Origin: a virus
Virus record (IMG/VR): IMGVR_UViG_3300046000_007893
Span: 1-26,360 of that record
Length of the DNA: 26,360 nt
Direction: 5' to 3' (one strand)
This document shows positions 4,987-23,159 of this stretch, piece after piece. How positions within the stretch are numbered: the first letter of the stretch is position 1; each line of letters opens with the position of its first letter. Below the pieces are notes generated by a model, which worked only from the letters and a program-made list of their open reading frames with translations, was not told the origin of the DNA and did no database searches. A program made the position numbers and the translations under genes.

Positions 4987-6851
4987 GCACCATGCCTATG
5001 TTTCAGCGGCCCTCGGAGTGGGTGCCGCCCGCCAACTTTCCCGATCTTTCCGCCGCAACGGAGATTGCGATCGACCTTGAAACGTGTGACCCCCACATGG
5101 AGTCGATGGGGCCAGGATGGCCCCGGAAGGACGGATTCATCGTCGGGTACGCCGTCGCGGTAGACGGATGGAAGGGCTACTTCCCGATCGCCCACCAGGG
5201 CGGCGGCAACCTCGATGAGCGCATCGTTAATCGATGGATGAAGAAAGTCCTCGAGTTGCCGTGCGACAAGATCATGCACAACGCCGCGTACGATCTTGGC
5301 TGGCTGCGAGCTTCGGGCTTCATGGTCAACGGCACAGTCTACGACACCATGCTCGCGGCGCCTCTCATCGACGAGAACCGCTTCAGCTACGCCCTCAACA
5401 GCCTCGGCTTCGATTACCTCAAAGAGGTCAAGTCAGAGCAGGGGCTGAAGGACGCCGCCTCCGACTTCGGCGTGCACGCCAAGAAAGAGCTTTGGAAGCT
5501 TCCCGCGATGTATGTCGGCGAGTACGCTGAACAGGACGCGGCGCTCACGCTCAAGCTTTGGCATCACCTCAAGACGCTTATCAAGAAAGAAGAAGTCGAG
5601 TCGATCTTCACGCTCGAGACCGAGCTGCTGCCGGTGCTGATCAACCTCACGTTCCAAGGCATCCGCTTCAACCGCGACAAGTGCGAGCAACTCATCGCCG
5701 ACTTCAAGCGCAAGGAAGCCGAGCACATTAAGCAGATCAAAGCCCTCTCCGGCGAGAAGGTCGACATCTGGGCCGCGGCGAGCATCGCCAAGGCCTTCGA
5801 CAAACTCGGGATTCTTTACCCCAAGACGACGACTGGCTTGCCAAGCTTCACCAAGACGTTCCTCGATGGCCATCCGCACGAGATCGCCAAGCTCATCATC
5901 GAAGCACGTGAGTTCAACAAGACCCACGGCACATTCCTCGAGCCTTACATGAACCACAGCGCCGCCGATGGGCGCATCCACCCGCACATCAACCAGATGC
6001 GATCCGAAGACGGTGGTACCGTTACCGGGCGTCTCTCGATGAACAACCCTAACCTACAACAGGTACCCGCGCGTCATGAAATTATCGGCCCGATGGTTCG
6101 CTCGCTTTTCTTCCCCGAAGAAGGACAACTTTGGGCAGCAAACGACTTCAGCTCACAGGAGCCTCGGCTTCTCGTCCACTACGCTACCCTCCTCGATCTA
6201 CCAGGAGCGGAGCGCATGGCGGAAGCATATCGCAGCAGCCCAGACACCGACTTCCACCAAATGGTGGCAGATATGGCGGGGATCCAGCGCAAAGCCGCAA
6301 AGACCATCGGACTCGGATTGATGTACGGGATGGGCAAGCAGAAGCTTGCCAACTCGCTCGATCTGCCGCTCGATGAAGCCGCGGAGCTCATCCAAAGCTT
6401 CCACATGAACGTCCCGTTCCTCAAGGGCACGGTCAACGCCGTGATGAAGCGCATCGAACACCCCGCCTCGGGCGGCTCGATCCGTACGCTGCTGGGCCGC
6501 AAATGCCGCTTCCCGCTCTGGGAACCCGTGGAGTACGGCATCAACAAGGCGCTGCCGCGCGAACAAGCCGTCATTGAATACGGACCACGGATCAAGCGTG
6601 CGATGACGTACAAAGGTCTTAATCGCCTCATTCAAGGCTCGGCCGCGGATCAGACCAAGGCCGCGATGGTCGCGCTCAACAAGGCCGGCTTCCGCCTTCT
6701 CTTGCAAGTGCACGATGAAATCGCCGTGAGCGTCGAGAACAAAGAACAGGCGCAGGAAGCCGCACGGATCATGGCCGAAGCCGTCTCCCTCGAAGTCCCC
6801 TCCCGTGTTGACGTCGAGGTTGGTCCTTCATGGGGAGAGGCGGCGAAGTAA
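4983..6851 (+). CDS. polA: Family A DNA polymerase with 3'-5' exonuclease, 622 aa
   Basis: Replicates the phage genome. The exonuclease domain has ExoI DLE (Asp31, Glu33), ExoII HNAAYD (Asp104) and ExoIII YAEQD (Tyr181, Asp185), so proofreading should be active. The polymerase domain has GTVTGRLSMNNPNLQQVP, motif A NDFSSQEPR (Asp388), motif B RKAAKTIGLGLMYG (Arg436, Lys440, Leu444, Tyr448) and motif C QVHDE (Asp578). There is no 5'-3' exonuclease domain, as in most phage enzymes. Leu444 aligns with E. coli Pol I Phe762. TTG 4983 is preferred because AAGGGG at 4969-4974 has an 8-base spacer and the start overlaps the helicase stop; ATG 4992 is the alternative. Confidence 0.96.
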   Translation: MSTMPMFQRPSEWVPPANFPDLSAATEIAIDLETCDPHMESMGPGWPRKDGFIVGYAVAVDGWKGYFPIAHQGGGNLDERIVNRWMKKVLELPCDKIMHNAAYDLGWLRASGFMVNGTVYDTMLAAPLIDENRFSYALNSLGFDYLKEVKSEQGLKDAASDFGVHAKKELWKLPAMYVGEYAEQDAALTLKLWHHLKTLIKKEEVESIFTLETELLPVLINLTFQGIRFNRDKCEQLIADFKRKEAEHIKQIKALSGEKVDIWAAASIAKAFDKLGILYPKTTTGLPSFTKTFLDGHPHEIAKLIIEAREFNKTHGTFLEPYMNHSAADGRIHPHINQMRSEDGGTVTGRLSMNNPNLQQVPARHEIIGPMVRSLFFPEEGQLWAANDFSSQEPRLLVHYATLLDLPGAERMAEAYRSSPDTDFHQMVADMAGIQRKAAKTIGLGLMYGMGKQKLANSLDLPLDEAAELIQSFHMNVPFLKGTVNAVMKRIEHPASGGSIRTLLGRKCRFPLWEPVEYGINKALPREQAVIEYGPRIKRAMTYKGLNRLIQGSAADQTKAAMVALNKAGFRLLLQVHDEIAVSVENKEQAQEAARIMAEAVSLEVPSRVDVEVGPSWGEAAK

Positions 6852-12317: not shown

Positions 12318-12533
12318 ATGTTAAGAGTTGATTCGGGCATCCCTATCCCCGCCGAAGCCCAGCGGGAGAAGTACCCCTTCCCTGTGATGGCCGTGGGGGA
12401 CAGTTTCCTGTTGGCCGATGCTGAGTCGGCGAAGAACGCTCGCAGCGCCGCGTGGATGTACTCCAAGCGCCACGGGACGAAGTTCTCGTGTCGGAAGGTT
12501 GAGGACGGTTGGCGGGTCTGGAGAGTCGCATGA
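12318..12533 (+). CDS. Small conserved phage protein (DUF7303-like), 71 aa
   Basis: Function unknown. The reading frame is open from GTG 12267, but ATG 12318 gives the start that fits the family pattern: MLRVDSGIPIPAEA, then YPFPVMAVGDSFLL, then helix AKNARSAAWMYSKRHGTKF and a VEDGWRVWRV end. Small phage proteins with 'GIPIP ... YPF ... VGDSF ... RVWR' are common and lack a known role. They are plausible regulators, since the gene sits alone between the origin-like region and the terminase. No good ribosome binding site precedes either start, so the start is uncertain. The stop overlaps the terminase ATG (12530). Confidence 0.7.
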   Translation: MLRVDSGIPIPAEAQREKYPFPVMAVGDSFLLADAESAKNARSAAWMYSKRHGTKFSCRKVEDGWRVWRVA

Positions 12534-13234
12534 AGATGCGGACCAAGGCCGACCAGGAATTCAGCAAGAAGGTTGGCAGGGGAATCAGCACCCCGACGTT
12601 GGAGAGGTTGGCGCGGCCCGTGAAGCCACACAAGAACCGTGAGCTGACGACGCAGGAATGGAAGTTCGTCAACGAGTTCGTCGCGGGGGACGGGCACGTT
12701 ACGCTTAAAGAGGCCGTGGTCCGTGCGGGGTGGCCCGAGAAGAACGCCAAGCGCAAGGCCGAGGACTTAACCAACCCCGACATTAACCCGCACATTGTCG
12801 CGGCGATCCAGAAAGCCCGAGCGGAGATGGCCGAGAAGTACGGCACGACCTACGAACGGCACATGAGAGACCTACAGGTCATTCGTGACCAGGCTTTGGC
12901 CGCGGGAGCCTATGGCGCGGCGGTGCAGGCCGAGTACCGTCGAGGGCAGGCCCTCGGCACGATCTACATCGACCGTAAGGAGATTCGGCACGGCACGATC
13001 GACTCCATGAGCAAGGAGGAGGTCATGCGCAAACTCGAGGAGATCAAAAAGCTCTACGGCAACGGCAGCCCGATCATCGACGTAACGCCGCAGCAGGTAG
13101 AGGAGAGCCTTGAGGAGCCGATCCAGTTAGAGCACGACGACCCCGAGGAGGAAGAGGATGCCGTCGAAGCCCGAGACGAGCCTGTATCAAAGGCTAAAGG
13201 AAAACCTCCCAAACTGCCTTATTACCCGGATTGA
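12530..13234 (+). CDS. terS: Terminase small subunit, 234 aa
   Basis: Binds the packaging site on phage DNA and delivers it to the large subunit. Residues about 38-85 have ELTTQEWKFVNEFV followed by LKEAVVRAGWPEKNAKRKAEDL, the helix-turn-helix arrangement of the Terminase_2 family. A helical oligomerisation segment follows (RAEMAEKYGTTYERHMRDLQ, AVQAEYRRGQALGTIYIDRKE). The C-terminal about 50 residues are very acidic then basic (DDPEEEEDAVEA, KAKGKPPK). ATG 12530 overlaps the previous stop. The last 77 bases overlap the nuclease gene in another frame. The large subunit gene lies 5.4 kb further on, separated by an acquired cassette, whereas the two are usually adjacent. Confidence 0.82.
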   Translation: MKMRTKADQEFSKKVGRGISTPTLERLARPVKPHKNRELTTQEWKFVNEFVAGDGHVTLKEAVVRAGWPEKNAKRKAEDLTNPDINPHIVAAIQKARAEMAEKYGTTYERHMRDLQVIRDQALAAGAYGAAVQAEYRRGQALGTIYIDRKEIRHGTIDSMSKEEVMRKLEEIKKLYGNGSPIIDVTPQQVEESLEEPIQLEHDDPEEEEDAVEARDEPVSKAKGKPPKLPYYPD

Positions 13235-13580: not shown

Positions 13581-13637
13581 GCCGTTGGTATAGATTCGGG
13601 TTGCTGGGATGTTCCAGCGTAGAAAGTGAGAAAGAAG

Positions 13638-14139: not shown

Positions 14140-14298
14140 ATGGCAGCAGCTAGGCGAGGCCAACGTCGCCGACCGTCAACGCTTAAGCCGCCCCCACTTG
14201 AGCCCCAACCATCGAAGGATAAAAAGGAGTTCTTGAGCACAATCGGAAAACTGATTTGGTTCATCGTGCTTCATCAAATTTTCAATGGAAAGAGTTGA
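14140..14298 (+). CDS. Small basic, possibly membrane-associated protein, 52 aa
   Basis: ATG 14140 is preceded by GGGGG (14131-14135) and lies 8 bases after the upstream stop. The product has a basic start, MAAARRGQRRRPSTLKPPPL, a Pro/Lys-rich linker and a hydrophobic C-terminal helix, FLSTIGKLIWFIVLHQIF, compatible with a tail anchor or an amphipathic membrane helix. It ends within the -35 box of the promoter that drives the next gene. Function unknown; a membrane-acting peptide is possible but unproven. Confidence 0.55.
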   Translation: MAAARRGQRRRPSTLKPPPLEPQPSKDKKEFLSTIGKLIWFIVLHQIFNGKS

Positions 14299-14317
14299 CA
14301 ACGGTTGACGAGTTGAT
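14294..14317 (+). repeat. Tandem GTTGAC/GTTGAT boxes (operator-like), site B
   Basis: GTTGAC at 14294-14299 and 14304-14309 and GTTGAT at 14312-14317, spaced 10 and 8 bases. They cover the -35 box and spacer of the promoter for the DUF932 gene. The placement mirrors site A at 11904-11917 and suggests a common regulator. Confidence 0.45.
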
Positions 14318-14322
14318 AGGAT
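14295..14322 (+). promoter_or_regulatory. Sigma70-type promoter of the DUF932 gene
   Basis: A perfect -35 TTGACA (14295-14300), a 16-base spacer and TAGGAT (14317-14322). The leader would be about 35 bases, containing the AAAGGAG at 14348-14354 for the GTG at 14363. The overlap with GTTGAC boxes suggests repression. Confidence 0.65.
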
Positions 14323-14362
14323 TCACTTCGGGCATCGTGCCCATCAGAAAGGAGAAAGGATC

Positions 14363-15451
14363 GTGACAAATCTCATGCAAGCATCGAAACAATGGGCCAC
14401 GCGCCCACCCGAGGAGCGTTTCACAAGTCTGCCCTCGATGCGTGAAAAGCTCGAAACACTCCGCGCCAATTCTCGCGCCTCGGTCGTGAGTTCGCGGCAG
14501 CTCGGCGCGGTTCCGACCGATGACAATCGAGGCATTCTCATCGAGGGCCCCGGCGGTCATACCGCGGCCCCGACTAACTGGGCCTTCGGACAGCTCGCGA
14601 ATCTGTCGGGAGCCCCGGCCCATTATTTGCGAACACTCCCGGCCCCACTCGCTGCGGACTGCTTGAACTACGGCCTCAAGGTCGAGCGCGATGCAATCGA
14701 CACGGGCGTTCTGCTCACTCGCGGATCGGACGGGATCGAATTACGGGCAGCGACCGGGCCTCGATATGGTCGCATTTGGAATGTCGATGTCGTTCGAGCC
14801 CTCGAAGATCGTTTCGGCGATGGCGTGTCGGGTGATTTTCGCGTTCCCGGTATTTTTGGAAAGGCCCTCGATGCCGTGACGAGTGGGAATACGACGTTAT
14901 TCGCAGGGGATCGCGATATGTTCGTTTTCCTCGCTGATGAGGTGAATCGGATCGAACTGCCCAATCGCCGAGACGGTCAGACGGGGCAGCTCGCGCGCGG
15001 ATTTTTCGTCACCAATTCCGAAACGGGCGCGGGTGCGTTGAAAATAAAAACCTTTCTTTTCGATTACGTCTGTGCCAATCGGATCGTTTGGGGGGCTCAC
15101 GAGTTGGATGAGATTTCGATCCGTCATACGGCCTCGGCCCCGGATCGGTTCATCGAGGAAGCGGCCCCGGCCTTGCTCGCGTATGCGAATGCGTCTGCAT
15201 CGTCGGTGTCGGACGTTCTGCGATCCGCGCAATCTGCAAAGCTCGAAAAGGTGGACGCATTTTTGGCGGCACGTTTCGGGCCTCGCGTCGCGGATCGAAT
15301 CAAGGCGGTGCATGTTGCCGAGGAAGGCCGCCCCATCGAGACGGTATTCGATGCCGTCACGGGTGCGACGGCCTACGCTCGCTCGATCCCGTGGACGGCG
15401 GATCGCGTCGAATTTGAAGAGCTCGCCGGGGAGATGCTCGAAGGGGTCTAG
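14363..15451 (+). CDS. DUF932 (phage/plasmid-like) protein, 362 aa
   Basis: A member of the DUF932 phage/plasmid protein group by overall pattern: QLGAVPTDDNRG near residue 47, a central TGPRYGRIWNVDVVRAL, then GFFVTNSETGAGALKIKTFLFDYVCANRIVWG, and a helical C-terminal region ending in LAGEMLEG. The biochemical role of the family is not established. GTG 14363 is supported by AAAGGAG at 14348-14354. It is the first gene of the cassette, with its own promoter upstream and a strong terminator after it. Codon use (GCC-TCG pairs, CTC leucine, TCG serine) differs from the replication genes and matches the next two genes, suggesting they were acquired together. Confidence 0.8.
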   Translation: MTNLMQASKQWATRPPEERFTSLPSMREKLETLRANSRASVVSSRQLGAVPTDDNRGILIEGPGGHTAAPTNWAFGQLANLSGAPAHYLRTLPAPLAADCLNYGLKVERDAIDTGVLLTRGSDGIELRAATGPRYGRIWNVDVVRALEDRFGDGVSGDFRVPGIFGKALDAVTSGNTTLFAGDRDMFVFLADEVNRIELPNRRDGQTGQLARGFFVTNSETGAGALKIKTFLFDYVCANRIVWGAHELDEISIRHTASAPDRFIEEAAPALLAYANASASSVSDVLRSAQSAKLEKVDAFLAARFGPRVADRIKAVHVAEEGRPIETVFDAVTGATAYARSIPWTADRVEFEELAGEMLEGV

Positions 15452-15479
15452 CCGTTCGTTCTGGTGGTGATCTGATCGA

Positions 15480-15514
15480 GGCCGGGAGGGGTTGCACTCT
15501 CCCGGCCTTTTTTT
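15480..15514 (+). terminator. Intrinsic terminator after the DUF932 gene
   Basis: GGCCGGGAG (15480-15488) pairs perfectly with CTCCCGGCC (15499-15507), followed by seven T's (15508-15514). It lies 28 bases after the stop at 15451. The T-tract runs straight into the next gene's extended -10 promoter element. Confidence 0.92.
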
Positions 15515-15522
15515 GCTATGAT
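15514..15522 (+). promoter_or_regulatory. Extended -10 promoter of the amidoligase gene
   Basis: TGCTATGAT (15514-15522) is an extended -10 element (TG-n-TATGAT). A weak -35, TTGCAC, lies at 15492-15497 with a 19-base spacer; extended -10 promoters tolerate poor -35 boxes. The start would be near 15529, giving a leader of about 46 bases with AAGAGG at 15561-15566 before ATG 15575. Confidence 0.6.
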
Positions 15523-15574
15523 CGGAGCGCGGCCCGTTGTGGGTCGCCTAGAAAGTTAGAAAGAGGTCGAAAAC

Positions 15575-17020
15575 ATGGTCATGTTTGATTCTGTTTTTTT
15601 TCGTTCTCGCGTCTCTGATCCTGCTCGTATCGGGCCGTTCGCCGAGCTCATCGCCGAGCGTCTCGATGCTGCCGGAACGTCTCGCGATTTCTCCCGATGG
15701 ATGGCGTCGTTTTCTCGATGCGTCGAGCGCGGATTCTCTCGCGTGGGCGATGCTCCTACTGATGACAATCTCGCTGCGTTCGCGGGGCTCGTCGCGGAAG
15801 CGGCGACTCGTCGCGGGATTCATTCTCCCGAGATGGTGCGGACGTTCTGGGAACAGGGCGACCGTTTATATCGCACCATTTCGACGGATACGCTGCGCGA
15901 ATGGCTCGACGTTGCGGAGGATGCGTCGAACGATTTTGACCGCGAGTTCATGCTTGAGGAAATAAACGAGCGCGGATCGCGTAGCGCGTGTGAGTGTTGC
16001 GGCGAGATGTTCTTCGATGACGATCTCGAACGGGCCTATGGAGACGATCTCGTCTGTGAGCGTTGCCGGGATCGTTCCTATCAATACTCGGAGCGATATG
16101 GCGCATGGATTCACGATGAGTATGCGCGGCGAGCTCTCAACGAACGGGGTCGGCCTTGCGTCATCCATTGCGACGATGAGGATTTCAGCTATGACGAGGA
16201 CGAGGACGAATACGTTCATCAAGACTATGAGAGCCCGTCGCGCTCGATCATCCGCGACTATCACGCCTCGAAGCGTTCGCAGGTTCCCATTTCGGACGAT
16301 TGGACGGTCGCGGCAAATCGCCATCTAGGGGTCGAGCTCGAAGTCGAGTGCACAGGGGCGCGGGATCGCACGACGATCGCGGCGGGAATCCATGAGGCCG
16401 TCAACGGGGGCGTATACGGTCATCGCATGTTCTTCGAGCGCGATGGGTCGCTCGCTGACGGGTTCGAGATGATCTCGCAGCCCATGAGTCTCCCGGCCTT
16501 GCGCGAGGTGTTCTCGTTTCTGCGTCGGCCCGAACTGGTCGCGGGGATTCGTTCGCATCGGACGAGCACATGCGGGCTGCATGTTCATGTATCGCGGACG
16601 GGCCTCTCGAATCTCACCATCGCTCGGGCGGTCACGTTCGTGAACGATCCGGGAAACGATGCGTTCATTACCGCAATCGCTCGACGCTACAACACGGGGT
16701 TCTGTCGGTATGTCGAAAAGGTCGTCGAGACGGCCCACTTGCCGGGGGATCGGTACGAGGCTGTCAACCTCACCAATGCGAACACCATCGAGTTTCGTAT
16801 CTTTCGCGGGTCGCTCAAGTACGAGGCCGTGGTCGCGGCCATGGAGTTCTGTCACGCGCTGCTCGAATTCTGCGCTCGCGAGAGTACGACGGCCTCGGGC
16901 CTCAATGCTCGGGCGTTCTTGGCGTTCTGCGCGGCCTCGATGTCTGACGAGACGGCGACGATGCGGCGGTATGTCTCGGAGCGAACGGCGGGTCTATTTC
17001 AACACTCAGAAGCGGCCTAA
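15575..17020 (+). CDS. Amidoligase-family protein with zinc ribbon, 481 aa
   Basis: Predicted ATP-dependent carboxylate-amine ligase of the putative amidoligase family (glutamine-synthetase-like fold), forming an amide or peptide bond on an unknown substrate. Domains in order: a helical N-terminal region (1-130); a zinc ribbon with C139/C142 and C161/C164; an acidic linker (200-220, DEDEDEYV); and the ligase core. The core shows GVELEVE (Glu254, Glu256, Glu258), ERDGS (290-292), GFEMISQP (Glu298), CGLHVHVS (His336, His338), NLTNANTIEFRIFRGS (Glu406, Arg408, Arg411). These are the metal- and ATP-binding positions expected for the family. A class II glutamine amidotransferase gene follows 20 bases later, suggesting an ammonia supply. 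The ribosome binding site is AAGAGG at 15561-15566. Target unknown. Confidence 0.85.
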   Translation: MVMFDSVFFRSRVSDPARIGPFAELIAERLDAAGTSRDFSRWMASFSRCVERGFSRVGDAPTDDNLAAFAGLVAEAATRRGIHSPEMVRTFWEQGDRLYRTISTDTLREWLDVAEDASNDFDREFMLEEINERGSRSACECCGEMFFDDDLERAYGDDLVCERCRDRSYQYSERYGAWIHDEYARRALNERGRPCVIHCDDEDFSYDEDEDEYVHQDYESPSRSIIRDYHASKRSQVPISDDWTVAANRHLGVELEVECTGARDRTTIAAGIHEAVNGGVYGHRMFFERDGSLADGFEMISQPMSLPALREVFSFLRRPELVAGIRSHRTSTCGLHVHVSRTGLSNLTIARAVTFVNDPGNDAFITAIARRYNTGFCRYVEKVVETAHLPGDRYEAVNLTNANTIEFRIFRGSLKYEAVVAAMEFCHALLEFCARESTTASGLNARAFLAFCAASMSDETATMRRYVSERTAGLFQHSEAA

Positions 17021-17040
17021 CGGCCTCGGAGGTTTTCATC

Positions 17041-17961
17041 ATGTGCTTACTAGTTCATCAGCCGGCCTCGACTCGTTTCTCTGACGAGTTTTTGGTCGAT
17101 GTCTACTCGGCGAATCGCGACGGTCTCGGGGTCATGTTCTCGGAGGGCGGCAAGCTGCACGTTCACAAGGTGCTGCCGAAAACGTCTAGCGAATTTGTCG
17201 ATTTCTATCGGGCCCATGCGGAGGGCCGCGAGTGCGTGTGGCACGCTCGGATGATGACTCACGGCGATATCAATTTCGACAACTGTCACCCCTACCGGGT
17301 GACGGATCGGGTTTATCTCGCGCACAACGGCATCCTTTCGACGGGTAACGATTGGGACAAGTCGCGCTCGGATACTTGGCATTTCATCCGTAACGTCATC
17401 GGCCCGGTCATCGAGGCGCGTGAGTCGTTGCTACTTGATAACGAGTGGCTCTCGTTCGTCGGTGATCTCATCGGAAGCGGTAACAAGTTCGGCATGATGA
17501 GCGCGGACGGTACGGTCGCAATCATCAACCGGAAGTCGGGTGTTACCTATGCCGGGGCGTGGTTGTCGAATACCTACGCATGGTCGGCCCATCGTTTCGG
17601 CGTGGCCTCGGCCCCTGCGCGTTCGTATTCGAGCTCGCCGATCTGGTCGAGTGCTTACGGCTACGGCCTCGACGATGACGAGCTCGATGCGTACTCGCTG
17701 ACGAGCTCGCGGTCGAGCTCGAAGGCCTCGCGCTCGGGCGGTGATTCTCTTTTGAAAATCACTCGGGCGGCCCGTAACTCTTACGAGCGCGGGACGCTCG
17801 CTCAATGGGTGCAGGACGCGCCATCGAAGGCCTCGCGGTTACTCTCTGCCATCGAGGATGACCCCACGGGCGCGACAGGTGAGCGCGTCTACAAAAATCC
17901 CGATTGGGTGGTTGAGTGCATCGGCGAATACTTCGACGCGGAGGCTTCGGCGTTTCAGTAG
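17041..17961 (+). CDS. Class II glutamine amidotransferase (Ntn hydrolase), 306 aa
   Basis: Predicted to hydrolyse glutamine and release ammonia. The chain starts Met-Cys, so removal of Met exposes Cys2 as N-terminal nucleophile. Family motifs follow: HARMMTHG (Arg70, Thr73, Gly75), NCHPY (81-85), LAHNGIL (His95, Asn96, Gly97) and SDT (110-112). The Ntn domain covers about residues 1-190. A Ser-rich linker (SSSKASRSGG) and a helical C-terminal segment follow and have no clear match. GGAGG at 17030-17034 precedes ATG 17041. It is cotranscribed with the amidoligase and ends at a terminator at 17986. Together they resemble predicted amide-forming modification pairs. Alone it could be a stand-alone glutaminase. 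Confidence 0.9.
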   Translation: MCLLVHQPASTRFSDEFLVDVYSANRDGLGVMFSEGGKLHVHKVLPKTSSEFVDFYRAHAEGRECVWHARMMTHGDINFDNCHPYRVTDRVYLAHNGILSTGNDWDKSRSDTWHFIRNVIGPVIEARESLLLDNEWLSFVGDLIGSGNKFGMMSADGTVAIINRKSGVTYAGAWLSNTYAWSAHRFGVASAPARSYSSSPIWSSAYGYGLDDDELDAYSLTSSRSSSKASRSGGDSLLKITRAARNSYERGTLAQWVQDAPSKASRLLSAIEDDPTGATGERVYKNPDWVVECIGEYFDAEASAFQ

Positions 17962-17985
17962 TCGAGCTCGATGTCGAGCGCGGAG

Positions 17986-18008
17986 ACGGCCCCATTCGGG
18001 GCCGTTTT
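17986..18008 (+). terminator. Intrinsic terminator of the amidoligase-glutaminase operon
   Basis: ACGGCCCC (17986-17993) pairs perfectly with GGGGCCGT (17998-18005) across a 4-base loop, followed by TTTT and TTT (to about 18013). It lies 24 bases after the stop at 17961. Confidence 0.88.
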
Positions 18009-18013
18009 CGTTT

Positions 18014-18480
18014 CTAGGGGTGCGTCATGCTCCCGGCGCGGTCGCGTCTCTGCGGCCTTCTCTGTGCGTCGGGTATTCATTCTCCGGTCTCGGTTCTCGG
18101 TGCTCGATGACGAGCTCGGGCGCGTCGGCCTCCCGTTGTCGGCCTCGATCTCTGGGCCCGGTCGTACTTGGCCTCGGCCCGTGGGCCGTGGTTCGTGCGG
18201 CGGTGCTCGCGGTATTCACTCCCGGCCCGTGGCGCGTGAGCTGCTGCGCGTCGGCCTTCGAGCGCGGCCCGTGGGCCGTGTTGCGTTGACCAGGTACTCG
18301 CTCGAGCTCGCCGATCCTGGCCTCGAGTTTGACCAGGTACTCGCTCGAGCTCGCCGATCCGTGGGCCGTGGCGCGTGGTTCGCGGGCCGTGGTTCGCGGG
18401 TTGCGGGCCTTCGAGCTCGGGCCGTGGGCCGTGGCTTGCGGGCCTTCGCTCACGATCGCCGACGAACGTCGGCAGCTTGC
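18014..18480. repeat. Repeat-rich GC-biased non-coding stretch
   Basis: No credible gene. The decamer GTGGGCCGTG occurs at 18181, 18271, 18361 and 18424, the first three exactly 90 bases apart. CGGGCCGTGG-like words are scattered between them. GAGCTCG and GGCCTCG recur, the same word bias as in the upstream cassette genes. The longest open frames on either strand change repeat phase between frames, start without ribosome binding sites and encode only low-complexity Arg/Pro/Gly/His. It may be decayed cassette DNA or a replication/recombination hotspot. Confidence 0.6.
18286..18360 (+). repeat. Exact 32-base direct repeat, two copies with 43-base period
   Basis: Bases 18286-18317 are repeated exactly at 18329-18360. 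Each copy starts TTGACCAGGTACTCG and ends GCTCGCCGATCC. The 11-base spacer is not repeated. A 43-base period is not a multiple of three, so the duplication does not preserve a reading frame, which argues against a coding origin. Confidence 0.95.
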
Positions 18481-18527
18481 CGCCCCAAAAAACGCGGCGC
18501 TTCACAAAGGCAAGGGCTTTTGCCCGA

Positions 18528-18553
18528 TTTCACACAGCCAATATGCTGTGAAA
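18528..18553. other. Inverted repeat resembling separated parS half-sites
   Basis: TTTCACACAGC (18528-18538) and GCTGTGAAA (18545-18553) pair with a 2-base bulge around CAATAT. The outer parts, TTTCAC and GTGAAAC, equal the arms of a Bacillus-type parS site pulled apart by 14 bases. It lies 7 bases before a complete parS-like palindrome. It might be a secondary ParB contact or just a hairpin. Confidence 0.35.
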
Positions 18554-18560
18554 CACTTTT

Positions 18561-18576
18561 GGTTCCACGTGGAACA
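18561..18576. promoter_or_regulatory. parS-like centromere site (ParB binding)
   Basis: The 16 bases on the minus strand read TGTTCCACGTGGAACC. This is the chromosomal parS sequence as I know it from Pseudomonas and one base from TGTTCCACGTGGAACA. The inner 14 bases, 18562-18575, are a perfect palindrome. It sits in the intergenic region about 100 bases before the terminase large-subunit gene. No other copy was seen in the window and no parA or parB gene is present, so host ParB would be the natural partner. Confidence 0.75.
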
Positions 18577-18613
18577 TGACCCCCGGCCCCCGCCGGTAGA
18601 AAAACAGGCCCGG

Positions 18614-18631
18614 GTTGATCAACTTGTCAAC
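18614..18631. repeat. GTTGATCAAC palindrome plus GTCAAC (operator-like), site C
   Basis: GTTGATCAAC (18614-18623) is a perfect palindrome and is followed by GTCAAC (18626-18631). Read on the minus strand this gives GTTGAC then GTTGAT at an 8-base period, the same layout as sites A and B. It lies 42 bases before the terminase start. No clear promoter was found here. Confidence 0.4.
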
Positions 18632-18635
18632 TCGT

Positions 18636-18648
18636 GCAAAAATTTTGC
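18636..18648. other. GCAAAAATTTTGC palindrome before the terminase gene
   Basis: A 13-base near-perfect palindrome (arms GCAAAA and TTTTGC about one central A) 24 bases before ATG 18673. It could be a protein-binding site or part of the leader structure. There is no direct evidence for either. Confidence 0.3.
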
Positions 18649-18672
18649 GCATATGAAAAGCAATTGGACCCC

Positions 18673-20136
18673 ATGAGCGCCGTTCCGAAGGAGATCGAGG
18701 AGGAGCGTCTGCGGCTGGAATACCGGCTAATGCTGCTCGAGACGCAGGACAAGGCGCGCAAGAACTTCATCGATTTCGTGCGGTACGTGTGGCCGGCCGC
18801 GATCCTTGGTGAGCATCACCGCCGCATGGCAAGTGCATTCGATCGCATTGCCAACGGGACGCTGAAGCGGCTGATCGTGAACATGCCGCCCCGGCATACG
18901 AAGTCAGAGTTCGCGTCGTATCTGCTTCCCGCGTATCTCATGGGCCGCAACCCGAATCTCCAAGCCCTTGAAGCGACACACACGGCAGAACTAGCCGTCA
19001 AATTTGGCCGTAAAGTCCGCGACCTGATGGATTCTGACCGCTACAAGGAGCTGTTCCCGGACGTCGTGCTGAAGCAGGACAGCAAAGCAGCCGGACGCTG
19101 GGATACGAACGCAGGCGGTAGTTACTTCGCCGTCGGTGTCGGCGGTGCCGTGACCGGCCGTGGTGCGGATATCTTGATCATCGACGACCCGCACTCGGAG
19201 CAGGACGCACTGTCGGAACTGGCCTTGGACAATGCGTGGGACTGGTACCAGGGCGGTCCGCGTACCCGTTTGCAACCGGGCGGTGCGATCGTGATGGTGA
19301 TGACGCGTTGGGGCACGAAGGATCTAACCGCCCGTTTGCTCAAGGCACAGGCGAGCCGCGGGGCGGATAAATGGGAAGTGATTGAGTTCCCGGCGATCTT
19401 GCCGAGTGGTAAGCCGCTGTGGCCGGAGTTCTGGAAGCTTGAGGAGTTAGAAGCCGTCAAGGCATCGCTGTCGGTCCAGAAGTGGAACGCGATGTACCAG
19501 CAACAGCCGACGAACGATGAGGGCGCGATCCTGAAGCGTGAGTGGTGGCGCATCTGGCCTCATGAGGCCCCGCCGATCGTGAACTACATCATCCAGAGCT
19601 ATGACACTGCCTACAGCAAAAAGGAAACGGCCGACTACTCGGTGATCACGACTTGGGGCGTGTTTTACCCGGACCAAGACTCAGGGCCCAACATTGTGCT
19701 GCTCGATGTCACGCGTGGTCGGTGGGACTTTCCTGAACTGAAACGGATCGCGAAGGACGAGTACAAACGTTGGAATCCTGATAACGTATTGATCGAAGCG
19801 AAGGCGACGGGCGTGACGCTCCAGCAGGAACTGCGGCGCGTCGGTATTCCTGTCACCATGTACACACCGGGCGGCAGACGATCGGGGACGGACAAGATCA
19901 GTCGCGCGAACGCGGTCGCGCCGATCTTGGAGTCGGGGATGGTCTGGGCCCCGGACACCGATTGGGCGGAAGAGCTGGTCGAGGAGTGCGCCGCGTTCCC
20001 GAACGGCGACAATGACGACATGGTGGACTCGACGACCCAGGCGCTGATGCGGTTCCGTCAAGGGAACTTCGTGACGTTGAACACCGACGAGAAGCCGGAG
20101 CCGTCTGGACGCACGCTTGCTCCCGAATACTACTGA
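18673..20136 (+). CDS. terL: Terminase large subunit, 487 aa
   Basis: The packaging motor ATPase and nuclease that cuts and pumps phage DNA into the prohead. ATPase domain: Walker-A-like NMPPRHTKS (70-78), Walker B ILIIDDP (167-173), coupling motif MTRWG (210-214). RNase-H-like nuclease: SYDTAYSKK (Asp311), LIEAKATG (Glu375) and DNDDMVDS (Asp448/449/452) supply the metal-binding acids. Length and motif order fit the Terminase_6 family. ATG 18673 is chosen because the family starts near here; the frame is open from GTG 18634. No strong ribosome binding site is visible. The gene follows a palindrome cluster with a parS site, and the small subunit is 5.4 kb upstream. Confidence 0.96.
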   Translation: MSAVPKEIEEERLRLEYRLMLLETQDKARKNFIDFVRYVWPAAILGEHHRRMASAFDRIANGTLKRLIVNMPPRHTKSEFASYLLPAYLMGRNPNLQALEATHTAELAVKFGRKVRDLMDSDRYKELFPDVVLKQDSKAAGRWDTNAGGSYFAVGVGGAVTGRGADILIIDDPHSEQDALSELALDNAWDWYQGGPRTRLQPGGAIVMVMTRWGTKDLTARLLKAQASRGADKWEVIEFPAILPSGKPLWPEFWKLEELEAVKASLSVQKWNAMYQQQPTNDEGAILKREWWRIWPHEAPPIVNYIIQSYDTAYSKKETADYSVITTWGVFYPDQDSGPNIVLLDVTRGRWDFPELKRIAKDEYKRWNPDNVLIEAKATGVTLQQELRRVGIPVTMYTPGGRRSGTDKISRANAVAPILESGMVWAPDTDWAEELVEECAAFPNGDNDDMVDSTTQALMRFRQGNFVTLNTDEKPEPSGRTLAPEYY

Positions 20137-20177: not shown

Positions 20178-23159
20178 ATGGCCAAAGCCAAGAAGTTAGC
20201 GGACAAAGACATTGCATCGTTTATCAAGAAGGTTGCGTCCGCGGGCCGTGGCGGCGACACGGAGTTGGCGTTTCTCAGCGCCAGTGCTCGGGATCTACTG
20301 AAGAAGCTCGGCGGCGCGGGGACCAAGAACCCTAAGACGGGGTTGAGGGAATACAAGGCGGCTTCTCGGTTTGCAAAGGCACGTGCGGAAGAAGCCGAGC
20401 CGGTAGGGCTGTTCGGCAACACCCCTGTTACTCCGACCGCCCCGATCGGCCCCTCGCCTTTTTCTGTTGCGCCGGCTTCTCCGTTCTCGATGGCACCGGA
20501 CACGATCGCCCCGCAGGCGGAACCTGAAAGGGAGCCTGCTCGTGGTTCGGCTGCGGCGGACTTACAGCAACTCAGCGTGGCTCCTCCTGCACGGCCCACG
20601 GAACAGGCTCAGGTAGAGCCGGAGTCCGAGCCGATTCGTCCGCAGCCGGGATCTGCTGCGGCGGATCTTCAGCAGTTCACTAATCCGCCCGCACAGCCGC
20701 AGGCCGCGCAGCCCCCTGCTTCCGTACCGACGAATCTCAATGCGGCGGCAGCGTCGTTTAACGCTGCAATGGCTGCGAACGCCGGGCAGAACACTCCGCA
20801 GATGGCGGATGCCGCAGAGCGTGCTCGTCTACGAAAGGAAGCGCGGGAGAGGGAAGACCTTTACGTTCGACCGATTGACTCCGGCATTGGTGATCGCCCT
20901 GGCATGGGCAAGACGGGAGGCCGTCCCGGTGGTTTTAACCCGTATGACGATGAAGCCGATCGTCGTGCGCAAGAAGAAGCTGCTCGCCGAGCAGCAGAGG
21001 AGGAAGCCCGTCGTGCAGCAGAAGCAGAAGCCGCCCGTAGAGCCGCGGAAGAGGAAGCTCGTCGTAAGGCCGAAGAAGACGCCAGACGTGCAGCAGAAGC
21101 AGAAGCCGCCCGTAGAGCCGCTGAAGAGCAGGCTCGTAGGGCTGCTGAAGAGGAAGCTCGACGACGTGCGGAGCAAGACGCGGCTGCTGCTCGAGCGGCT
21201 GAGGAAGCCCGTCGACTAGCGGAAGAGAACGCGCGCCGCGCAGCAGAGGAAGAGGCAAGACGTAGGGCCGAAGAAGCCCGGCGTGCTGCGGAAGAAGAGG
21301 CGCGTCGCAAGGCCGAGGAGGACAAGAAGAACAAGCCTCCTGGCGGTGGCGACACAGGCAAGCCCGGTCCGGGAACCGGCACCGTGACTGCTCCGCCGGG
21401 GTTGATTGACAGCAAGTTGCCGGTGAATCCTCCGCCTACCACTACTCTGCCCCCGGGCGGTGGCGGCATTACGTTCCCGCCGTCTTCTCCTCCGCCCCCG
21501 GAGAAAGAGAAGCCGATCCGTACGGCGGACTTTATCGATCAAAACTTAAACGGTATTGACGATCGGGACGAGGAGTTTCGCAATCCCCGGACCATGGAAT
21601 TCCGAGATCGCAATCGTAACGGCATCGACGATCGGGACGAGAAGCCTGATACGGGCAAGCCCTCACGTGGGCAGTTTAATTTCAACTGGAACGCGATTGA
21701 CCCGAACAGCGATCTTGGTCGGTTGATCGGTCGGATTGGAAGACCTCCGGGCAGTAAAAAGCCTTCCCCGGGGCGAGGAACTCCTGGTGGCGACAAGACG
21801 CCTCCCCCGCAGACGGGCCGCGGGCTGCCTTCGCGTCCTCCACCGACGACGATTCCGATCAGCCCCCCGACCGCGGGCCCTCCGACCACGAGTCCTCCGG
21901 GCGATGGCGGCTACACGCCGGGTCCAATCCCTGTCACGACGCTGCCAAAGCCGGGGTACGTTGCTAATCCATTGCCCACGGCCCCGGGCCGTGGTACGTC
22001 AACCCCGTACTTTACGCCAACGCCTGGTAGCCTGACTCCGGGAACCGTACCGGCGAACATTAATCTGCCGAGTTTGCAGACGAGCAATCTGCCGCAGCAG
22101 GCGCTTGCGCAGAACCCGAACCTCGGGCCGGGGATGTTGGGTGGGGCGCAGAACGCGGGGTACTACACGGATCGTTTTGGCAATGTGATTCTCTCGCCCG
22201 CGGCGGTGCGTCCGCCTGGTCGCGCGAAGGGCGGTCCGGCTTCGGATAAGGAGTTGCTCGCGCTTTTGAAGGGTGAGAACAAGGAAGCCTATGCCGAGTC
22301 GATGAAGAACATTGATTCCGCGCGGGCCATGCTTGAGAACCTGTCTGACATGCCTGGCGAGACGACGACCGAGTATAGTTCGACGCCGATCTCGCAGACC
22401 GTGCGCCGCGCGACGCGGCAACCGATCCGTCAAGAGACGGACAGGGGGACAGCACGCGGTATGGCCATGGAGCTTGAGTCGTTGACCACGGCCCAAGGGC
22501 CCAAGCGCGCGCCTGACACGCTCGCGGAGCTTTTGAAGATGTCGGAGTCCGTACGTTCGCGTGATGCGATGTCGGCGAAGGATTTGATGCGTGATACGTT
22601 TGGCGAGGGCCGGCTGACCAAGAAGCAGTTATCGCGGCTCGGGGATCTGATGACGCGTCGCTTTGCTGAGGGCGGGGAGGTCGACGAAACAGACGAGCGG
22701 ATGATCCCGCTCCATCTACGTACGTACCTTGCCTCCATGCTTGGCGGTAAGACCAGAGAACCGATTACGGAAGAGAACCTGTCTGGTGCGGAGTTAGCGA
22801 AGCTTCGTCGGTTGATTGAGCTTGCCAAGAGCCAGCCTGTATCAAGCAAGAAGACGGGCAAGGCGTTGCCGGGTGTGGTGACGTACGCGCATCATGACGC
22901 ATACAAGAACAAGTACGAGCGTCTCGGTGGGCTGCCCGGCCCTGACACGGACAAGACGTTGTACTCGACGGCGAACCTGCGTAATACGTTAGGGACGTTT
23001 TCGTTCAAGGAGATGCCTGATGGATCGTACGTGATCAACGACACGTATGACTTCACGGGGGATGTTGGCGAGAAGGACAACTGGCTCATCAAGCAGGCGA
23101 ACAAGGCGGGCGTGAATCGTCCGGTGGAAATTCGACTGCCTCCAAAAAAGAAGAAGTAG
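20178..23159 (+). CDS. Large coiled-coil, proline-rich, EF-hand-like protein, 993 aa
   Basis: Unrecognised; its place between terminase and portal suggests a virion or packaging-associated protein. Visible architecture: a lysine-rich helical N-terminus (1-75); a Pro/Ala linker with two GSAAADLQQ copies (about 120-165); a long Ala/Glu/Arg coiled coil (about 215-385), TolA-like, with exact DNA duplications; and a Pro/Gly stretch. Then come two calcium-loop-like repeats, DQNLNGIDDRDE and DRNRNGIDDRDE, 23 residues apart (about 454-490). A second Pro-rich region follows, then RFAEGGEVDETDERM and a folded C-terminal domain (about 850-985). That last domain contains DGSYVINDTYDFTGDVG, with a basic KKKK end. 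No signal peptide. Start ATG 20178 has only a weak GGGGA upstream. Confidence 0.85.
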   Translation: MAKAKKLADKDIASFIKKVASAGRGGDTELAFLSASARDLLKKLGGAGTKNPKTGLREYKAASRFAKARAEEAEPVGLFGNTPVTPTAPIGPSPFSVAPASPFSMAPDTIAPQAEPEREPARGSAAADLQQLSVAPPARPTEQAQVEPESEPIRPQPGSAAADLQQFTNPPAQPQAAQPPASVPTNLNAAAASFNAAMAANAGQNTPQMADAAERARLRKEAREREDLYVRPIDSGIGDRPGMGKTGGRPGGFNPYDDEADRRAQEEAARRAAEEEARRAAEAEAARRAAEEEARRKAEEDARRAAEAEAARRAAEEQARRAAEEEARRRAEQDAAAARAAEEARRLAEENARRAAEEEARRRAEEARRAAEEEARRKAEEDKKNKPPGGGDTGKPGPGTGTVTAPPGLIDSKLPVNPPPTTTLPPGGGGITFPPSSPPPPEKEKPIRTADFIDQNLNGIDDRDEEFRNPRTMEFRDRNRNGIDDRDEKPDTGKPSRGQFNFNWNAIDPNSDLGRLIGRIGRPPGSKKPSPGRGTPGGDKTPPPQTGRGLPSRPPPTTIPISPPTAGPPTTSPPGDGGYTPGPIPVTTLPKPGYVANPLPTAPGRGTSTPYFTPTPGSLTPGTVPANINLPSLQTSNLPQQALAQNPNLGPGMLGGAQNAGYYTDRFGNVILSPAAVRPPGRAKGGPASDKELLALLKGENKEAYAESMKNIDSARAMLENLSDMPGETTTEYSSTPISQTVRRATRQPIRQETDRGTARGMAMELESLTTAQGPKRAPDTLAELLKMSESVRSRDAMSAKDLMRDTFGEGRLTKKQLSRLGDLMTRRFAEGGEVDETDERMIPLHLRTYLASMLGGKTREPITEENLSGAELAKLRRLIELAKSQPVSSKKTGKALPGVVTYAHHDAYKNKYERLGGLPGPDTDKTLYSTANLRNTLGTFSFKEMPDGSYVINDTYDFTGDVGEKDNWLIKQANKAGVNRPVEIRLPPKKKK
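21012..21121 (+). repeat. Exact 35-base internal duplication in the coiled-coil region
   Basis: Bases 21012-21046 recur exactly at 21087-21121, period 75 bases (25 codons), preserving the reading frame. Each copy starts CGTGCAGCAGAAGCAG and codes for part of the RRAAEAEAARRA pattern. The wider 20960-21330 stretch is made of related degenerate units, so slippage could change coiled-coil length. Confidence 0.9.

Follow-up and report, generated by a model that had tools for sequence, protein, structure and literature searches.

A zinc-ribbon amidoligase and a class II glutaminase form a two-gene accessory module between the terminase genes of a phage

Amidoligase modules are known from LUZ24-like phages and phiEco32, for which a change to peptidoglycan and a block to superinfection have been predicted, citing Iyer et al. 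2009 (PMC11945000, PMC10580990, PMC11318856). Phage amidoligases have repeatedly been annotated as superinfection-blocking wall modifiers with reference to this comparative-genomics prediction, and the accessible parts of these three papers contain no biochemical test of wall modification. In another described system, the class II glutaminase fold of EgtC cleaves gamma-glutamyl bonds instead of supplying ammonia (PMC4621440).

The locus analyzed here lies in a 26,360-base virus record (IMG/VR record IMGVR_UViG_3300046000_007893, analyzed over its whole length and called the window below). UFV-P2 (LUZ24-like, ORFs 21-29), phiEco32, and the window have in common a PF12224 ligase gene near a class II glutamine amidotransferase (GATase) gene in the early region of a tailed phage. 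The UFV-P2 module is larger, with additional genes for a COOH-NH2 ligase, an ATP-grasp protein, and GGCT (AIG2), whereas that of the window consists of two genes and its ligase carries a zinc ribbon. The ligases of the window and UFV-P2 are remotely related (hhalign probability of 33%), and the glutaminases are more clearly so (89%). GGCT (PF06094) was found in none of 22 long pair-bearing virus records, which may be fragments, compared to 9 of 14 genomes in the positive control; the COOH-NH2 ligase (PF14395) was likewise found in none of the 22 records, with the control genomes also negative.

Gene layout and expression signals

The left half of the window contains replication genes for a primase (AEP-TOTE), a UvrD-like helicase, and a family A DNA polymerase. 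Genes for a DUF932 protein, an amidoligase, and a class II GATase follow, as the preliminary description of this DNA had reported. All three are open, intact, identifiable by Pfam or PHROG matches, and located between the terminase subunit genes.

12509-13234: terminase small subunit gene (weak match)
14363-15451, plus strand: DUF932 protein, 362 aa, GTG start (PF06067, 2.5e-7; phrog_1362, 5e-42)
15478-15515, plus strand: strong intrinsic terminator closing the DUF932 unit, with a 13-bp stem and a T run
15514-15523, plus strand: candidate extended -10 element TGCTATGATC for the enzyme pair, conserved in several relatives (L002-L014 type)
15549-15566, plus strand: leader/ribosome-binding segment TAGAAAGTTAGAAAGAGG, strongly conserved in 12 relatives
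15575-17020, plus strand: amidoligase, 481 aa (PF12224, Amidoligase_2, 3.9e-8)
17041-17961, plus strand: class II GATase, 306 aa, nucleophile Cys2 (PF13230, 1e-5)
17984-18013, plus strand: probable terminator of the pair, ACGGCCCC-ATTC-GGGGCCGT followed by a T-rich tail, by direct reading
18634-20136: terminase large subunit (TerL) gene

The gap of 20 bases previously noted between the ligase and GATase genes can be read directly from the coordinates. Relatives also have a stem-loop at the position of the DUF932 terminator, with a varying sequence. The preliminary description had further proposed that the enzymes have their own promoter and terminator. The promoter site proposed at 14295 was not confirmed: it scores 10/12, but chance alone would give 1.6 sites of this quality in the region, it lies upstream of DUF932 rather than the enzymes, and L004 has not kept it. 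The extended -10 element, whose only exact match in the window is at 15514-15523 and for which no -35 element was recognized, is a better candidate promoter element for the pair. For the terminator, the stem-loop with its T-rich tail 3' of the GATase gene was confirmed and is identical in three near relatives (L002-L004). A mechanical terminator scan did not list it.

Several other observations were made within the window. A 15-base leader motif, TAGAAAGTNAGAAAG, occurs exactly at both 15549-15563 and 13620-13634, preceding the ligase gene and the gene at 13626, and is possibly a phage-specific translation or promoter element. Imperfect tandem repeats with a period of 24-27 at 20961-21160, inside the large gene after TerL, probably encode a charged repeat region. 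Rfam gave no match within the window, and PADLOC anti-phage defense models gave no hit for any protein examined.

Linkage of the enzyme pair and its relationship to DUF932

We gathered relatives with each gene in turn as query and counted neighbors with profiles built in this analysis; the viral samples derive from a single query family with related contigs included, and the same contig can recur across samples. Of 88 testable viral loci anchored on the ligase, 87 had the glutaminase gene immediately downstream of the ligase gene and on the same strand. Likewise, all 79 glutaminase-anchored viral loci with usable flanks had the ligase upstream on the same strand, 78 of them within 300 bp (one further locus with too short a flank is left out of this count). 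Bacterial loci carried the pair on the same strand within a few kilobases in 75 of 76 testable cases, with the two genes within 300 bp of each other in 72 and the glutaminase downstream in 74. When the two viral searches are taken together with the bacterial one, ~99% of testable loci had the ligase gene directly upstream of that of the glutaminase and in the same orientation. Divergence of the ligase correlated with that of the glutaminase (Mantel rho of 0.76; best of 500 permutations, 0.15), as would be expected for partners that travel together, with a contribution from shared ancestry. The ligase and glutaminase are a true two-gene module, and this co-occurrence in relatives supports the earlier proposal that the two enzymes act together. 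One locus (L294) has a single 723-aa ORF joining ligase and GATase, in which an internal ATG with GGAGG before MetCys remains; this may represent a lost stop codon or an assembly error, and we set it aside as Rosetta-stone evidence.

Phages with several different backbones (L015, L017, L018, and L020) contain the pair, as do bacterial genomes, mostly those of Oscillospiraceae and relatives along with Polynucleobacter, and 50 of 79 bacterial loci have an integrase, resolvase, or relaxase gene within 8 kb. This wide spread over phage backbones, together with the mobility genes, suggests that the pair benefits mobile elements in general and that the modification pays for mobile DNA. In 34 bacterial loci (L272 at 6132-6419 and 33 others), the gene immediately before that of the zinc-ribbon amidoligase encodes DUF960, a possible third partner of the pair in Firmicutes integrative elements.

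The preliminary description had considered DUF932 and the enzymes as one acquired cassette, while allowing that DUF932 might be an independent unit. Acquisition of the three genes as one unit, with DUF932 as a functional partner of the enzymes, would be consistent with their location on the same strand, their common composition shift, and the adjacency of DUF932 to the pair in ~20 related contigs, but the pair was absent from 42 of 49 complete DUF932-to-TerL intervals in DUF932-anchored loci, leaving the three-gene neighborhood in 7. Furthermore, a terminator separates DUF932 from the pair, four contigs of the window's phage group (L006, L008, L009, and L010) contain the pair with no DUF932 seen, and DUF932 was near the pair in none of 80 bacterial loci. 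Near-identical phages also lack the pair: L181 and L198 have a TerL 99% identical to that of the window and matching parts of the next protein, with a short ORF (81 aa as read in L181) occupying the site where the pair would be. The pair is likewise missing from DSL-LC04 (TerL 75%), in which a DUF932 protein gene immediately precedes that of TerL. Because DUF932 mostly occurs without the pair, some contigs contain only the pair, and near-identical phages lack it, the enzyme pair alone is the accessory element and DUF932 is a resident backbone gene of the window's phage group that does not belong to the enzyme module. We rejected the three-gene cassette on these co-occurrence counts; it is largely refuted, and we regard it as very improbable. 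DUF932 as an independent unit was the correct alternative, since the three genes rarely occur together among DUF932 phages. An AlphaFold model of DUF932 (pLDDT of 82.5) had no match below an E value of 0.1 in a fold search of the PDB; DUF932 is a conserved phage protein for which this search found no solved relative.

A negative AT skew and a preference for serine TCG and leucine CTC codons mark the stretch from 14.4 to 18.6 kb, and acquisition was considered on the basis of this composition. Both DUF932, a backbone gene, and the spacer ahead of TerL fall within the shift, and in phages lacking the pair that spacer is filled with GC-rich words of the same kind. Because of this shared bias, we did not use composition as evidence for recent acquisition and rejected it as proof of acquisition.

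The spacer itself (17962-18634) is a 670-base GC-rich, repeat-rich, noncoding stretch with CGAGCTCG and GGGCCGTGG words, and a spacer of the same kind precedes TerL in phages without the pair; it could hold packaging or partition signals. A parS-like palindrome, GGTTCCACGTGGAACA, is present at 18561-18576, ~75 bp upstream of TerL, and such a palindrome also occurs upstream of TerL in L205, L214, L217, L223, L006, L186, and others. Within the window's phage group, the TTNCACGTGNAA palindrome was located 24-120 bp upstream of TerL in 22 of 54 distinct TerL-upstream stretches, and the core in the divergent members L205, L214, L217, and L223 is the canonical one of bacterial parS, TGTTTCACGTGAAACA. 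A search of 19 records, including some fragments, for a ParB_N gene found none, and host ParB may be drawn to the phage genome by the parS-like site. Adjoining it is an inverted repeat, TTTCACACAGC...GCTGTGAAA (18530-18556), that is identical in L002-L004 and is a possible operator.

Conservation and predicted folds of the ligase and glutaminase

The ligase scored 33.9 bits against PF12224 (gathering cut-off of 22) and had no match in NCBIfam. Its parts are as follows.

Residues 1-135: helical N-terminal region
Residues 139-164 (15989-16066, plus strand): zinc ribbon, C139-x2-C142 ... C161-x2-C164
Residues 171-240: linker
Residues 241-481: glutamine-synthetase-fold core

An AlphaFold model of the ligase, built with 70 sequences from an alignment whose rows are the window and IMG/VR or genome loci (mean pLDDT of 91.6), matched glutamine synthetases in Foldseek (E value of 2.3e-5, probability of 1.00), with further matches to gamma-glutamylmethylamide synthetase (GmaS), YbdK, and PafA/Dop (Pup ligase/depupylase); whole-chain TM scores were low (~0.3), partly due to the extra N-terminal region. 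On this model, the ligase belongs to the glutamine synthetase (GS) superfamily, which includes GS, YbdK, and PafA/Dop. The GxExE, DGS, HxH, and ExR motifs and residues E298, R371, R393, and N398 were invariant in 70 ligases, and by likeness to GS these residues would function in binding metal, ATP, and substrate.

As previously described, the ligase contains a zinc ribbon (C139, C142, C161, and C164) and an acidic linker. C142, C161, and C164 were present in all 70 relatives and C139 in 58. Compared to the L002 ligase, that of the window has 16 amino acid changes, all in residues 1-240, and residues 241-481 contain 24 synonymous changes with no amino acid change. In comparison to the L005 ligase, identity is 72% in the core and only 24% in residues 1-135. 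The lack of amino acid changes and the high identity in the core point to strong purifying selection on the catalytic part. It is in the N-terminal part of the ligase that lineages differ; the rapid change of this half may stem from relaxed constraint instead of selection. For the suggestion that the zinc ribbon is a docking part, near invariance of the ribbon within the fast-evolving half was observed, and docking itself is plausible.

The glutaminase profile matched the glutaminase domains of GlmS (1xff, 4.6e-11) and PurF. Among 50 relatives, Cys2, Arg70, and Gly97 were found in all, Thr73, His83, and Asn96 in 49, and Asp111 in 48; His68 is also retained in the alignment to 1xff. Together with the invariant ligase residues, these counts show that active-site residues are kept across the 70 ligases and 50 glutaminases rather than lost in most relatives. 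In NCBIfam, the window GATase had weak matches to GlmS only and no hit to the EgtC model (TIGR03442), and a bacterial relative matched GlmS at 1e-19 and EgtC at 0.0066. By sequence, the glutaminase is nearest to ammonia-producing GlmS and PurF, and its lack of a match to the EgtC model makes a role as an ammonia donor likelier.

Proposed mechanism, alternatives, and comparison with known systems

We propose, with a probability of roughly 0.55, that the pair acts as a glutamine-dependent amidoligase of two components and travels as a mobile accessory module, predicted to amidate a carboxylate with the target chosen by the N-terminal part of the ligase. The analysis establishes gene content, adjacency, fold class, invariant residues, and the independence of the pair from DUF932, and we infer glutamine-derived ammonia, amidation through an acyl-phosphate, N-terminal target choice, and use in conflict. 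Given its intact GlmS-type residues, the class II glutaminase would hydrolyze glutamine via Cys2 and release ammonia. The GS-fold ligase, considering its fold and invariant residues, would bind ATP and metal and phosphorylate a substrate carboxylate, after which ammonia would attack the acyl-phosphate to yield an amide. The helical N-terminal region and zinc ribbon, changing fast around a frozen core, may choose the substrate, the most likely candidates being a cell-wall peptide or a protein of the host or the phage. The benefit to the element that carries the pair would most likely lie in conflict with its host or with rival elements, where the pair could, for instance, change the envelope or a targeted protein. 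A further reading, in which phages and conjugative or integrative elements use the pair as a conflict module to amidate a specific host or phage protein via a rapidly diversifying helical and zinc-ribbon reader, is tentative and rather unlikely. If true, it would represent an ammonia-ligating post-translational modification between mobile elements and their hosts.

We know of no wall-peptide ligase that carries a zinc ribbon, which counts against a role for the pair in amidating or otherwise altering host peptidoglycan stem peptides to block superinfection or prepare lysis. Such a role is the published prediction for the LUZ24-like and phiEco32 modules (PMC11945000, PMC10580990, PMC11318856). 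Considering also the remoteness of the ligase from the UFV-P2 enzyme and the absence of the module partner GGCT from the 22 long pair-bearing records, we find cell-wall modification possible but doubtful. The pair might instead perform a gamma-glutamyl cycle, in which an amine or peptide receives glutamate or an amino acid from the ligase and the glutaminase-like protein hydrolyzes a gamma-glutamyl bond. A precedent is provided by EgtA, which acts as gamma-glutamylcysteine synthetase, and EgtC, a glutamate-releasing GATase (PMC4621440), and the fold matches of the ligase include YbdK, a glutamate-cysteine ligase of the GS superfamily. Because the window GATase matches GlmS and not EgtC, and its bacterial relative matches GlmS far better, we consider this cycle unlikely. 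The pair is a minimal version with two genes, keeps its residues intact, and is missing from near-identical phages, which makes it well suited to finding amidoligase targets.

Adjacent amidoligase and GATase genes in the same order as in the window are found in the OM43 phages MEP401 and MEP402, which belong to another phage family (Zobellviridae) and show ~28% identity over the core only. Mycobacteriophage Marvin gp105-gp106 and relatives also form an adjacent amidoligase/GATase pair, with an intact Cys2 and a cysteine-rich N-terminal region, but the Marvin pair has ~25-30% identity to that of the window and lies at the far right genome end. The window GATase has the Cys nucleophile and the HxR, THG, HNG, and Asp motifs of the GlmS and PurF glutaminase domains, but differs from them as a stand-alone protein with an extra C-terminal region. 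Similarly, the ligase has the fold common to the GS/YbdK/PafA-Dop superfamily and conserves acidic, histidine, and arginine residues as expected, but unlike these enzymes, it has a separate glutaminase gene as its partner and contains a zinc ribbon and a helical N-terminal region. The pair is a two-gene, zinc-ribbon variant of the phage amidoligase modules already predicted in LUZ24 and phiEco32.
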